A DNA stretch of 64,000 nt. Source: Sporocytophaga myxococcoides DSM 11118. GTDB taxonomy: Bacteria > Bacteroidota > Bacteroidia > Cytophagales > Cytophagaceae. The DNA lies in contig NZ_AUFX01000010.1 in NCBI RefSeq assembly GCF_000426725.1, positions 62,001 through 126,000 on the forward strand. Direction: 5' to 3'. How positions within the stretch are numbered: position 1 is the stretch's first letter; each line of letters begins with the position of its first letter. Of this stretch, positions 43,160 to 63,571 are shown piece after piece. Made by a program: the position numbers and the translations under genes. Under the pieces are notes generated by a model. It had not been told where the DNA came from and ran no database searches. It saw nothing but the letters and a program-made list of their open reading frames with translations.

Positions 43160-43570
43160 CAATGCAGTATTTGAAATTATCCGTAGAGACGCCATGCTGG
43201 CGTCTCTTTATCCTCTGGCACTGCACCTTAAATTATCAGGACACAGCAATAGGTAAACATTAGTCTCTGCACATATCCATCTCTGTCCATTACCAAAGCT
43301 TTTGAGACGCCAACATGGCGTCTCTACGGTCTGGCACAACATCTTAAATTATCAGAACATTATAATTGGCAAACATTAGTTTCTCCAATATATCGATCGT
43401 AATTCATTACCAAGCCTGTAGAGACGCCATACTGGCGTCTCTTTATCCTCTAGCACTGCACCTTAAATTATCAGAACATTATAACTGGTAAACATTGGTT
43501 ACTCCAATATATCCATTATAATTCATTACCAAAGCTTTTGAGACGCCAACATGGCGTCTCTACGATTGGG
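43160..43570. repeat. Tandem array of four palindromes, period about 118 bp, two alternating types
   Basis: Perfect palindromes GAGACGCCA-N3-TGGCGTCTC lie at 43186-43206, 43304-43324, 43421-43441 and 43540-43560 (steps 118, 117, 119). Units 1 and 3 read GTAGAGACGCC...CTCTTTATCCTC, while units 2 and 4 read TTGAGACGCCAACA...CTCTACG. The spacers are also repeated (CACCTTAAATTATCAG, GGTAAACATTAGT, TTCATTACCAAAGC and variants). This suggests duplication of a two-palindrome block of about 235 bp. Relics are at 29938 and near 30694. Confidence 0.9.
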
Positions 43571-45335: not shown

Positions 45336-45433
45336 TGTAATCTCATGTTGGCTAGTCTGAATCAGGATTTACAAGATTAATAGATTAACGGGATAAAATT
45401 AAAAAACACTATGCTAAAACTCTAAAGACGCAT

Positions 45434-45566
45434 AAATGTCTGAACCACTGATTTAAAAGTGATTATTTTGATTTACATGATTCTTTGACTTGCGATTTCA
45501 GAAATATTTGATTTCCTGAATTGCCTTCATCATATTAATCATTTCAATCACAAAAATCAGCGGTAC
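45434..45566. repeat. GxxExxY-associated palindromic repeat, copy A
   Basis: The unit of about 133 bp begins AAATGTCTGAACCACTGATT and ends AAAAATCAGCGGTAC. Its two halves (TGATT-rich left, AATCA-rich right) are imperfect inverted repeats of about 40 bp each. The right end overlaps the last three codons and stop of the GxxExxY gene. Confidence 0.85.
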
Positions 45567-45946
45567 TTATTACTAATGATACGCTTAAATTCTAAACTCT
45601 TTGCTCCAAAGTTTATCAATAACCCTACTTCAAGATTATAGGCTTCCAGATAATTAAGGGCTTGAGCTAAATGTACAGGTTCCAGTCTGCTCACTGCTTT
45701 TAATTCTACTGATATTATTCCTTCCACTAAAAAATCTACTCTTCGTGTTCCTATATGTTTTCTCTTATAGTATATAGGCATTTCATGTTCTCTGGAAAAT
45801 TTAATTCCCCGCTCCTCCATCTCAATCTCCAATGCTCTCTGATAAATAAACTCCTGAAATCCGTTACCTAATGATGAATGGACTTCCATGGCACATCCTA
45901 TCACTTTTGATGTTTCATGAGAATACTTATATTCTTGTTTGATCAT
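45557..45946 (-). CDS. GxxExxY family protein (putative PD-(D/E)XK nuclease)
   Basis: The 129-residue protein has the defining motif NGFQEFIYQRAL (G29, E32, Y35) and a nuclease-like core RRVDFLVEGIISVELKAV (D71, E81, K83). The following EPVHLAQALNYLEAYNLEVG helix and GLLINFG strand complete the fold. GxxExxY proteins occur in many copies in Bacteroidota and other genomes; their biological role is not established. Here the start codon lies directly at the edge of one repeat (45947 onward) and the stop codon TGA lies inside another (copy A), so gene and repeats appear to form one unit. Confidence 0.9.
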   Translation of the reverse strand: MIKQEYKYSHETSKVIGCAMEVHSSLGNGFQEFIYQRALEIEMEERGIKFSREHEMPIYYKRKHIGTRRVDFLVEGIISVELKAVSRLEPVHLAQALNYLEAYNLEVGLLINFGAKSLEFKRIISNKYR

Positions 45947-46266
45947 AGTAAAAATGTCTGAACCACTGATTTAATATGATTAATTTGATTTATATGATTT
46001 TTTGACCACTGATGTAAAAAGGATTATTTTGATTTACTTGATGATTGTCTGAGCCCATGATTCTATAAAAATTTGATTGCTTTTATGACATCATAATAAT
46101 ACATCATTCAATACCAAATACCCTCCGACCACCACTCATTTAATATGATTAATTTGATTTACATCATTTCATGAGCTTGCGATTGAAGAATAATATGATT
46201 TCCAAGATGAATTAATCATAAAAATCATTCCAATCACAAAAAATCAGTGGTTCAGACATTTTTACT
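45947..46266. repeat. GxxExxY-associated repeats, copies B and C, bounded by 26-bp perfect inverted termini
   Basis: The segment starts at 45947-45972 and ends at 46241-46266 with a perfect 26-bp inverted repeat (AGTAAAAATGTCTG followed by AACCACTGATTT at the left). Inside are a partial unit (copy B, to about 46110, with an internal duplicate of ACCACTGAT near 46015) and a full unit (copy C, 46131-46266). This resembles a MITE, and the left edge abuts the GxxExxY start codon. Confidence 0.85.
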
Positions 46267-46518
46267 TTAAACGCACACTCAAAAATCCTAGCTGGTTTTA
46301 CATCTGGGTGAACTGTTGCAAGATTAAAATTTTAGAATTAAAAAAGCAATAGCACCTAGGCAGAGTAAATCTCAAAGGGGGGTGAGGTATGAAAAGTTCT
46401 TTGAAAGATTATATAAACCGGTTGGTTAAAAAAGTATTTTGAAAGAAGAAGATATAAAATTTCACCTCAATGACAAGTCCCTTACAAAACCACCAGCATA
46501 GCAAAGGTAGCACCTCTG

Positions 46519-46640
46519 CCAATGATTTAAACTGATTACTTTAATTGACATCATTTCCAAAGCATGCGATTTGAGTTAATTTGAATTCCCAAGATAAATT
46601 AATCATAATAATCATTCCAATCACAAAAAATCAGCGGTAC
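46519..46640. repeat. GxxExxY-associated palindromic repeat, copy D (solo)
   Basis: Same layout as copy A (AATGATTTAAACTGATTACTT ... AATCATTCCAATCACAAAAA-ATCAGCGGTACTT), here with no nuclease gene. It ends 11 bases before the greB stop. The shared end AAGTACCGCTGATTTTT (minus strand) is the 3' end of the GxxExxY gene, so copy D looks like a solo element or the scar of a lost gene copy. The 250 bases between copies C and D hold nothing I can name. Confidence 0.8.
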
Positions 46641-46651
46641 TTGCACGGAAA

Positions 46652-47128
46652 TTACTTCTGATACTCTATTCTTGTAATACGCCAGATAAATTCCCCCGCA
46701 CCTGTTTTCACTACTACTTCATCACCCACTTCTTTTTTCATCAGGGCGACTGCCATAGGTGAGTCTATAGAGATGTAGTCTTTGGTGGTATCAAAGATCT
46801 CATCATACCCCACTATACGAAAACGTTTTTGTTCACCTCTGTCATTTTGAATCTCTACCCACGCACCAAACATTACTTTGCCTTCCTGGAAAGGTGTATA
46901 ATTCACGACTTTCAAGTCAGTAATACGTTTCCGTAAATAAAGCACCCTCCTGTCGATTTCCCGCAAACGCTTCTTATTGTAATGATAATCTGCATTTTCT
47001 GAACGATCTCCAAGACTTGCTGCCCAGGCTACCTTCTGCGTAGTGTCCGGCCGTTCAACACGCCATAAATGATCCAATTCAGCTTTTAATTTTTCTAAAC
47101 CTTCTGGAGTAATTAGGAGCGTTTTCAT
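46652..47128 (-). CDS. greB: Transcription elongation factor GreB-type
   Basis: The 158-residue factor has an N-terminal coiled coil (TPEGLEKLKAELDHLWRVER) with the acidic tip motif GDRSENADYHYNKKRLREID that reaches into the RNA polymerase secondary channel to stimulate cleavage of backtracked RNA. A C-terminal FKBP-like domain follows (FGAWVEIQN ... YISIDSPMAVALMKKEVGDE). The YHYNKKRLREIDRRVLYL stretch is more GreB than GreA. Complete. It sits between the repeat cluster and the nuclease genes, 87 bases downstream of the 623-residue gene. Confidence 0.92.
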   Translation of the reverse strand: MKTLLITPEGLEKLKAELDHLWRVERPDTTQKVAWAASLGDRSENADYHYNKKRLREIDRRVLYLRKRITDLKVVNYTPFQEGKVMFGAWVEIQNDRGEQKRFRIVGYDEIFDTTKDYISIDSPMAVALMKKEVGDEVVVKTGAGEFIWRITRIEYQK

Positions 47129-59030: not shown

Positions 59031-59891
59031 TTAATCATTATTTCCCAACCTCTCCTCACAAACCCTCTTCACCAATTCCTTCAACACCTCAATCCTCCCA
59101 CTCAAATATTCCAAATCCTCTTTCGTAATAGTATACCCCTTCTTATACCTCGCATCAATGTAAGCCTTCTTCAACAGCTCATACCGATCAATCTGTTCTT
59201 TGGTATCTTTAGGAAATACAGTTCTGAATTCTTTATTGATTACAGCAGCAGTTTTACCCAATTCATCAAGATCATGATTCTTGCCTTTGTAGTGAGTGAA
59301 GACTAAGTTCACAGCAGAGTAAAAGCTTTCAGTGGCTTGGTGAAGGTTAAATGCCGCAAGATTATAATCAGGTTTGTTAAAGCAATAACCATAAACATCA
59401 ATGAAACTCTTCCCCTTGCCAATCCAGTATTCATACTCGTCTTTAGCTCTTTTAAGCACAGCATCCGGATTTACCTTTCCCGGAGTTGCAAGCGTTACCT
59501 CTCCGGAATCGTATAATACAATCCCCTCACGGATCACATCAGTGAAAAAATAACTTCCGGCTTTGAGTTCTTTGTTGATGAATTCGGCACTATGGTGAAT
59601 GGCGGTAACTGTTGTAGACAACTCCAGCTTCTTCAGCTTTTGCTTGGTCTTGCGCCATCTACTGGAGGATGTATTGCCCAATTCCTCAGGAGTAATCACC
59701 AGAATATCATAATCACTCTTGAAAATCAGCCTGATGCCCTCCTCTACCTTTTCTTCCTCTGCCCAGGTATTCCGTGCATAACTTCCGAAAAGCAGCAGCT
59801 TAGCAGGCTTCATCTTTTCCACAATGAGATCTGTGATAAGCTTCAGCTCCTCCTGTTTGTATTCCGGCAAAAAATCTAAACTGGCAATCAA
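59031..59891 (-). CDS. Nucleotidyltransferase-HEPN fusion protein, copy 1
   Basis: The 286-residue protein has an N-terminal minimal nucleotidyltransferase with LLLFGSYARNTW (G36-S37) and SDYDILVI (D60, D62), and a C-terminal HEPN domain with AAFNLHQATESFYSAVNLVF and KGKNHDLDELGKTAA (about 178-215) ending in ITKEDLEYLSGRIEVLKELV. In two-gene systems the MNT partner AMPylates or neutralises a HEPN RNase; here both are on one chain. A near-identical gene lies at 62717-63571, differing sharply only at residues about 157-178. Upstream 45 bases are also nearly identical. Role not established; defence or toxin-antitoxin control is possible. Confidence 0.85.
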   Translation of the reverse strand: MIASLDFLPEYKQEELKLITDLIVEKMKPAKLLLFGSYARNTWAEEEKVEEGIRLIFKSDYDILVITPEELGNTSSSRWRKTKQKLKKLELSTTVTAIHHSAEFINKELKAGSYFFTDVIREGIVLYDSGEVTLATPGKVNPDAVLKRAKDEYEYWIGKGKSFIDVYGYCFNKPDYNLAAFNLHQATESFYSAVNLVFTHYKGKNHDLDELGKTAAVINKEFRTVFPKDTKEQIDRYELLKKAYIDARYKKGYTITKEDLEYLSGRIEVLKELVKRVCEERLGNND

Positions 59892-62716: not shown

Positions 62717-63571
62717 TTATTGCATTAACCTCTCCCCACAAATCCTCCTCACCAACTCCTTCAACACCTCAATCCTCCCACTCAAATACTCCAGATCCTC
62801 TTTCGTAATCTTATACCCCTTCTTATACCTCGCATCAATATAAGCCTTCTTCAACAGCTCGTAATGATCAATCTGTTCCTGGGTTTCTTTTGGAAATATA
62901 GCTCTGAATTCTTTGTTAATCACAGCAGCCGTCTTACCCAATTCATCCAGGTCATGGTTCTTGCCTTTGTAGTGCGTGAAGACTAAGGCAACAGCAGAGT
63001 AAAAGCTCTCAGTGGCTTGATGAAGCATGAATGCAGCTTTATTCCAACTTTCGCTAGAAAAATAAAACCTATACCCATCTAAAAATTCACCACCACTCTT
63101 AAACCAGTATTCATACTCCTCTTTAGCTCTTCTAAGCACAGCATCCGGATTTACCTTTCCCGGAGTTGCAAGCGTTACTTCACCGGAATCGTATAATACA
63201 ATCCCCTCACGGATTACATCAGTGAAAAAATAACTTCCGGCTTTGAGTTCTTTATTGATGAATTCAGCGCTATGATGAATGGCGGTAACCGTTGTAGATA
63301 GCTCAAGCTTCTTCAGCTTTTGCTTGGTCTTGCGCCATCTGCTGGAGGATGTATTACCCAGTTCCTCAGGAGTAATCACCAGAATATCATAATCACTCTT
63401 GAAAATCAGCCGGATTCCCTCCTCTACCTTTTCTTCCTCCGCCCAGGTATTCCTTGCATAACTTCCGAAAAGCAGCAGTTTAGCAGGCTTCATCTTTTCC
63501 ACAATGAGATCTGTGATAAGCTTCAGCTCCTCCTGTTTGTATTCCGGCAAAAAATCTAAACTGGCAATCAA
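62717..63571 (-). CDS. Nucleotidyltransferase-HEPN fusion protein, copy 2
   Basis: The 284-residue near twin of 59031-59891 is identical through the nucleotidyltransferase (LLLFGSYARNTW, SDYDILVI) and most of the HEPN part (AVALVFTHYKGKNHDLDELG). It differs at about residues 157-178 (FKSGGEFLDGYRFYFSSE in place of IGKGKSFIDVYGYCFNKP) and in scattered positions toward the C-terminus. DNA of the flanks and of the first 150 codons is close to identical, while the central block (63030-63100) is barely alignable. This argues for duplication followed by replacement or diversification of one block. The two copies are direct repeats flanking 2.8 kb. Confidence 0.85.
   Translation of the reverse strand: MIASLDFLPEYKQEELKLITDLIVEKMKPAKLLLFGSYARNTWAEEEKVEEGIRLIFKSDYDILVITPEELGNTSSSRWRKTKQKLKKLELSTTVTAIHHSAEFINKELKAGSYFFTDVIREGIVLYDSGEVTLATPGKVNPDAVLRRAKEEYEYWFKSGGEFLDGYRFYFSSESWNKAAFMLHQATESFYSAVALVFTHYKGKNHDLDELGKTAAVINKEFRAIFPKETQEQIDHYELLKKAYIDARYKKGYKITKEDLEYLSGRIEVLKELVRRICGERLMQ

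Follow-up and report, generated by a model that had tools for sequence, protein, structure and literature searches.

REP-RAYT systems are described, in the excerpts of the literature considered here, as a gene placed between inverted palindromes, with solo palindromes in excess and coevolution of repeats and protein (PMC2817692, PMC3116915, PMC3733652). The 23S rRNA intervening sequences that carry an S23p ORF are presented as having inverted ends and an unclear function, and have been called selfish (PMC4990558). MITEs are given as 70-300 bp in length with inverted ends and no coding capacity (PMC3733652), and the TAACTGA direct repeats are heptamers scattered between Bacteroidetes genes (PMC4679880).

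We compared these systems, as the cited excerpts portray them, with a locus from Sporocytophaga myxococcoides DSM 11118, located within a 64,000-nucleotide stretch of DNA that was analysed as a whole (the window). Like REP-RAYT (REPtron) and REPIN arrangements, the locus has inverted palindromic repeats on both sides of a gene of nuclease type, with solo copies in excess, and like the 23S rRNA intervening sequences it contains a short ORF between inverted ends and probably inside a transcription unit (PMC4990558). Unlike the RAYT, which is an HUH tyrosine (Y1) transposase, the GxxExxY enzyme is of the PD-(D/E)XK kind, and its arms, which often overlap the reading frame, have GTCTGAAC ends and consist of GATT-like units repeated about every 9 bp, whereas REPs are 20-40 bp long and GTAG-tagged. 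Unlike the 23S rRNA intervening sequences, the element lies between protein genes and encodes a PF13366 and not a PF05635 product. Its solo copies are MITE-like in being small, with inverted ends and no coding capacity. They differ from the MITEs so described in that no insertion sequence encoding a known transposase was identified as their parent, a role that would fall to the GxxExxY element. Since the enzyme comes from another superfamily, we did not assign the element to REP-RAYT, and by analogy the best reading may be one in which it works like REP-RAYT with a PD-(D/E)XK enzyme replacing the HUH transposase.

The GxxExxY gene and its palindromes in the window

The GxxExxY gene (45557-45946, minus strand) encodes 129 aa, including D71, E81, K83, Q95 and Y99, and its product matched the profiles PF13366 (PDDEXK_3; E 4.1e-39, 134 bits, cut-off 22) and TIGR04256 (GxxExxY; E 8.6e-42, 142 bits, cut-off 35). 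These were the sole family matches of the product, with no HUH or Y1 family among them, and in a profile search of the 6.34-Mb genome the gene was the sole PF13366 match. The start codon occupies 45944-45946 and the 5'-side palindromic block (45947-46266) starts at the next base, bounded by 26-bp perfect inverted termini (45947-45972 and 46241-46266), in agreement with an earlier sequence-only reading that had placed the gene within one base of such a block. Inner copies were located at 46005-46042 and 46131-46258, the latter being a palindrome whose right arm is in common with the right end of the block. The 3'-side palindrome (45438-45568) has its outer end, GTCTGAACC, at 45438, an arm of GATT units extending to approximately 45482, and an opposite arm at approximately 45530-45566 that contains the last codons and the stop codon (45557-45559), where the same reading had put them. 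It had further reported a gene-less copy near greB with the same 3' junction, and this too was recovered: AAAAATCAGCGGTACTT, the reverse complement of AAGTACCGCTGATTTTT, is present at 45552-45568 and again at 46626-46642, the latter as the AAGTACCGCTGATTTTT junction of a solo copy (46518-46642) found 9 bp from greB (46652-47128; a protein gene adjoining the element, named as in that reading). The GTACC[AG]CTGATT form of the junction was absent from 23 stretches of the same genus, and is thus a local detail.

The repeats had been described as long palindromes, and palindromes they are, but imperfect ones and in differing states. Folded as single-stranded DNA, block 45947-46266 gave a z of -6.36 with none of 100 shuffles as good, and copy 45434-45570 folded mildly better than shuffles (z -2.23). 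Neither the inner copy taken alone (46128-46262, z -0.22) nor the greB-side copy (46515-46640, z +0.79) folded better than shuffles, and because of the latter value the greB-side copy looks decayed. A one-armed end of a second type (GTCTGAATCAGGATTTACAAGATTAATAGATTAACGGGAT) was observed at 45355-45399 on the plus strand, with similar copies in the genus. Elsewhere in the window, a further palindromic repeat family occupies 43181-43564, with copies 116-119 bp apart and GAGACGCCANCATGGCGTCTC-like hairpins in alternating direction, and two pairs of direct repeats of 300 bp, one at 89% and the other at 94% identity and each with a spacing of 3680 bp, were observed between 59047-59720 and 62727-63400.

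Among 45 aligned GxxExxY sequences, G27, E32, Y35, D71, K83, Q95 and Y99 were invariant and E81 was present in at least 90%. In the PD-(D/E)XK superfamily D71, E81 and K83 have a catalytic role, with Q95 and Y99. No solved structure matched the protein by sequence at E values up to 1. An AlphaFold2 model (pLDDT 91.6) matched 4ic1 SSO0001, which we take to be a Cas4 protein (TM-score by query 0.59), LHK-Exo 3syy (0.49) and lambda exonuclease 1avq (0.54), each with a Foldseek probability of 1.00; these best alignments had a large rmsd of 12-14 A and modest TM-scores of 0.49-0.59. Matches of lower Foldseek probability included the Holliday junction resolvase 2eo0 (0.84), the R2 retrotransposon protein 8iby (0.66) and Cas4 of the type I-C complex 8d3l (0.63), and archaeal splicing endonucleases were among the weak fold matches. 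The model points to a predicted nuclease of PD-(D/E)XK fold, resembling Cas4 and lambda exonuclease. A nuclease of this kind and hairpin ends would suit one another, and we infer that the ends may be cut by it.

Repeats flanking GxxExxY genes in other genomes

GxxExxY proteins are widespread, with at least 569 relatives confirmed in one scan of public species genomes, the best 80 of which were analysed. Identity to the window protein was 64-77% in the 44 of these that were aligned, and the rates reported below may be lower in distant genes. Several of the scan contigs are metagenome-assembled genomes labelled outside Bacteroidota (Cyanobacteria, Dojkabacteria, Nitrospirae and others), in which mis-binning is possible. 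In the family of the window, PF13366 was detected in 16 of 19 genomes, the window's own genome included, with 39 match rows.

How often repeat ends border these genes compared with chance, a count proposed by the sequence-only reading, was determined with a loose pattern (a GTCTGAAC-like end followed by two GATT-like units) and with a strict one. At the 74 gene loci available from the best 80 of at least 569 relatives, the loose pattern was found as a left end in 61, a right end in 53, and on both sides in 45, so that GTCTGAAC-type ends with spaced GATT units enclosed the gene in 45 of 74 loci. The same pattern at other ORFs of these loci gave two left ends, two right ends and none on both sides (n = 60), and shuffles gave one, zero and zero (n = 74). 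The strict pattern, applied to the same loci from the best 80, was found at 35 left ends, 28 right ends and 21 on both sides of 74, against 1, 1 and 0 of 60 other ORFs and 0, 0 and 0 of 74 shuffles. A gene-spanning inverted repeat at z > 3 was observed in 52 of the 76 loci with enough flank (again among the best 80 of at least 569 relatives). Of 61 other ORFs in these loci, 5 had one, and at least two of these five positive controls (L126, L130) carry the same repeat kind by eye. About one third of the GxxExxY loci had no gene-spanning inverted repeat at z > 3. When loci of the window's family were turned to the gene strand, dropping three with too little flank (a procedure applied to the GxxExxY, S23 and ParE sets of family and phylum), 20 of 30 GxxExxY loci and 0 of 16 ParE loci passed z > 3 in the family. 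A plasmid search returned eight records, and of these eight loci L347, L350, L351 and L352 exceeded z 3. Palindromes flanking GxxExxY genes are a common arrangement, not a local accident.

The repeats also extend into the gene. The frequent left end approximates GTCTGAACTATGATTTnTnTGATTAAATGATnnnnTATGATTAA, in which ATGATT is the gene start, and in 19 of 61 loci a distance of 35-39 nt separated the left end from the start codon, while the right end was at most 25 nt past the stop in 29 of 53 loci (both counts from the best 80 of at least 569 relatives). On the latter count, a stop codon inside the repeat is a common trait of GxxExxY loci.

Within the 34 loci in which both ends were readable, the left and right arms of one locus were more alike at variable positions than were arms taken from different loci (0.686 vs 0.502, p 0.0002; further comparisons 0.544 vs 0.385, p 0.0008, and 0.539 vs 0.415, p 0.003). 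Homogenisation of the units within one arm was considered and rejected as not significant (p 0.31, 0.25). As described for REP-RAYT, repeats and protein change together: arm similarity tracked protein similarity (Mantel rho 0.264, p 0.001, n = 61), a figure that still includes shared ancestry. This correlation shows inheritance as a unit and not, by itself, mutual adaptation.

Solo copies and occupied or empty sites

Searching related genomes for the repeat ends, another step proposed with the initial reading, gave 194 matches of the exact end pattern in 19 genomes with solos in excess, and the reversed pattern gave 0. The thought that these are generic intergenic palindromes beside a gene that is merely intergenic could draw on the palindromic repeats of another kind nearby (43181-43564); with both ends present at none of the 60 other ORFs and in none of the 74 shuffles, and no reversed match, we consider it hardly credible and rejected it as far as the ORF, shuffle, ParE and reversed-pattern controls go.

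Solo copies were observed on both strands. Of the 194 ends, 145 from nine genomes were used to measure distance to the gene (leaving out the ends of G016-G018, one of G000, the window's own genome, and five of G005, G006, G010 and G011), and 20 of these were within 900 bp of a PF13366 match while 125 were beyond. The number of ends per genome correlated with the number of PF13366 matches (Spearman 0.62, p 0.004, 19 genomes, kinship not removed), which may parallel the link between copy number and gene in REP-RAYT, although solos in G000 are mostly non-cognate; both this result and the Mantel result also reflect shared ancestry. Ends were present without any PF13366 gene in G017 (6 ends) and G011 (2 ends). 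In 40 stretches picked for containing ends or genes, we found 22 copies with two ends and a length of 93-190 bp, along with gene-bearing copies and ends spaced further apart. All three of the short two-ended copies from G002 and G004 that were folded did better than shuffles (z -5.76, -6.45, -2.86). Solos in G002 and G004 matched the arms of the resident genes, and 14 of 18 rows favoured the arm type of their own genome, a result driven by two genomes. Most solo ends in G000 were of other types than the arms of its one gene, so not every solo there has a living partner gene. Four loci of G000 (L271, L275, L277, L278) hold one-armed copies with the frequent GxxExxY left-arm layout, ending at TATGAT with no gene behind.

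The comparison of occupied and empty sites, also envisaged at the outset, yielded two cases. A 234-bp solo in G000 (L279 1212-1445) had no counterpart in G017 or G016, in which the two flanks adjoin each other at that position, and G018 had a differing copy at this site. At this best site pair there was no clear target-site duplication; CTGTCCAAACA, an 11-bp duplicate 15 and 10 nt outside the ends, was found on both sides of the solo and once in the empty sites. Because no clear duplication was found, we did not assign the element to the insertion sequences. The second case is a site in Mucilaginibacter between a ruvX-like gene, presumably ruvX from its sequence, and the next gene, starting MEILPH. 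The element was present in G080, G081 and G082, and in G083 with the gene inverted, while G079 had neither the gene nor recognisable arms there and its site did not fold better than shuffles (z -0.91). By eye, the element end encodes the C-terminal residues of the ruvX product in the occupied genomes. Such presence and absence could also reflect loss instead of gain. No clean empty state was found at site B, C or D, with other palindromes or remnants at B and C, and the window's own site had no empty counterpart, the contigs of G017 ending there. At site C (L251, L305) a GATT-type palindrome in G002 corresponds to a 7-bp-period palindrome by eye in G003, and at L304 of G004 a short palindrome of another kind (AACGTCGTCGAGGTTTAAAACCTCAACGACGTT) stands where G002 has a GATT-type solo. 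With flanking above controls, solo copies, and occupied and empty sites all observed, the sequence-only reading of repeats and gene as one unit with solo derivatives, comparable to REP-RAYT, is supported.

Annotated records place the gene as fabD-GxxExxY-fabG in Sphingomonas, radA-GxxExxY in Bacteroides and ade-GxxExxY in Bernardetia. Where both neighbours were co-directed, the gene shared their direction in 55 of 57 loci. An excess of co-direction over the local background was rejected (GxxExxY 52/65 vs other ORFs 45/58), and the orientation speaks for insertion only under a random-orientation null. At L111 the element lies between two large genes that resemble type I restriction and modification genes by eye.

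The agreement in direction with both neighbours (55/57) would also suit an element acting at the RNA level, in which the arms of the transcript pair around the ORF, RNase III trims them, and the protein serves the RNA as in 23S rRNA intervening sequences. The co-varying arms and the archaeal splicing endonucleases among the weak fold matches would be in keeping with this, as would the layout of inverted ends around an ORF that the intervening sequences share in the cited excerpt (PMC4990558). We regard it as unlikely: the proteins closest in fold are DNA exonucleases and one that we assume to be Cas4 (4ic1), solos are found on both strands, the gene is inverted in G083, and scattering would still require movement of DNA.

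A proposed palindromic element and the spacing of its units

We favour as probable a family of small mobile elements whose coding members are the GxxExxY genes, with a nuclease that would act on its own palindromic arms. The element would be a palindrome whose two arms start with GTCTGAAC or a genome-specific variant and have a short gene between them, and in each arm three to four GATT-like units would recur at intervals of about 9 bp. The reading frame would often run into the arms, the start codon forming the last left-arm unit and the last codons and stop lying in the right arm, and the gene-less copies (93-190 bp) may be non-autonomous derivatives. As suggested by the fold, the Cas4/lambda-exonuclease-like PD-(D/E)XK protein most likely recognises arms extruded as a hairpin or cruciform and would cut there, with repair then copying the element to new intergenic places, such that the nuclease would drive the spread. 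The results above show the unit, the coupling of its arms with each other and with the protein, the solos, and presence or absence at sites; cutting of the arms by the nuclease, and its part in the spread, are inferred. The gene is probably read from the promoters of its neighbours, since it usually lies between co-directed genes and in their direction.

Under this proposal the palindromic arms would be the defined partner of the GxxExxY proteins, whose function becomes directly testable. Like REP-RAYT, the element would pair a repeat with a dedicated enzyme, here a Cas4-like nuclease, and to our knowledge there is no other such system, nor was one found in searches of the open PMC literature. 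In those searches, with most subscription journals and all bioRxiv preprints outside their scope, GxxExxY was mentioned in passing only, and neither GxxExxY nor S23 was linked to such repeats.

Self-matching in the flanks of the best 80 of at least 569 GxxExxY genes peaked at lag 9, with mean z values of 1.35 and 1.55 in the two window sizes used, and also at 18. Flanks of 30 S23 (PF05635) genes from the window's phylum peaked at lag 7 (mean z 2.80 and 3.05), and also at 14. No lag mean exceeded 0.52 in 86 control ORFs, of which 14 had a best lag of 7 or 14 in the shorter window, which agrees with the presence of heptamer repeats in other parts of these genomes. The same lag peaks were observed in the window's family, with loci not turned to the gene strand. 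Ten single divergent loci (with CACAGAG, TCTGCG, CGCGAAGG and other arms) gave mixed best lags, often 8-10, with a clear lag 9 at z > 3 only at L347 (both sides) and L348 (one side), and for this reason we state the GxxExxY period as about 9. Inverted repeats spanned the S23 gene in 19 of 29 loci of the family and 18 of 29 of the phylum. The period thus differs between the intergenic S23 copies (7 bp) and the GxxExxY element (about 9 bp).

Cyanobacterial STRR are short-period repeats scattered between genes. The repeats described here resemble both these and the TAACTGA heptamers, as far as the latter's cited text describes them, in being short-period and intergenic, and the period of 7 belongs here to the S23 set. 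A word search of the main text of the TAACTGA report (PMC4679880) returned no 'S23', 'four helix', 'intervening sequence' or 'palindrom'. There may be a wider class of palindromic elements with a period rule, in which each element protein is tied to a fixed arm spacing whatever the sequence (about 9 bp for GxxExxY, 7 bp for S23), the spacing and not the sequence being read or written by the protein, and to which S23 intervening sequences and heptamer repeats would belong; we hold the case for such a class to be evenly balanced. Two old puzzles, the S23 intervening sequences and the heptamer repeats dispersed between genes, might thereby share one explanation.

That S23 genes, of unrelated fold, are found in similar palindromes is also what might be expected if the palindromes were moved by a Y1 or other transposase or by repeat recombination, with the nuclease gene captured as a passenger, and the same may be said of G017 and G011, which have ends and no PF13366 gene. 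The arms, however, track the GxxExxY protein and overlap its reading frame, and the different periods of the two protein families are hard to square with one shared mover, and we therefore consider a captured passenger quite improbable and retain the element with its own nuclease as the preferred reading.

Genes for S23/IVP four-helix-bundle proteins (PF05635) were observed in all 19 genomes of the window's family and in 45 of 61 of its phylum. The S23 loci L064-L093 and L315-L344 showed inverted repeats with a 7-bp period in several sequences (GTTAGTT, AAGTTGT, CTCTGTA and others). In one case, judged by eye, palindromes of unrelated families were found at the same intergenic site in sister species.
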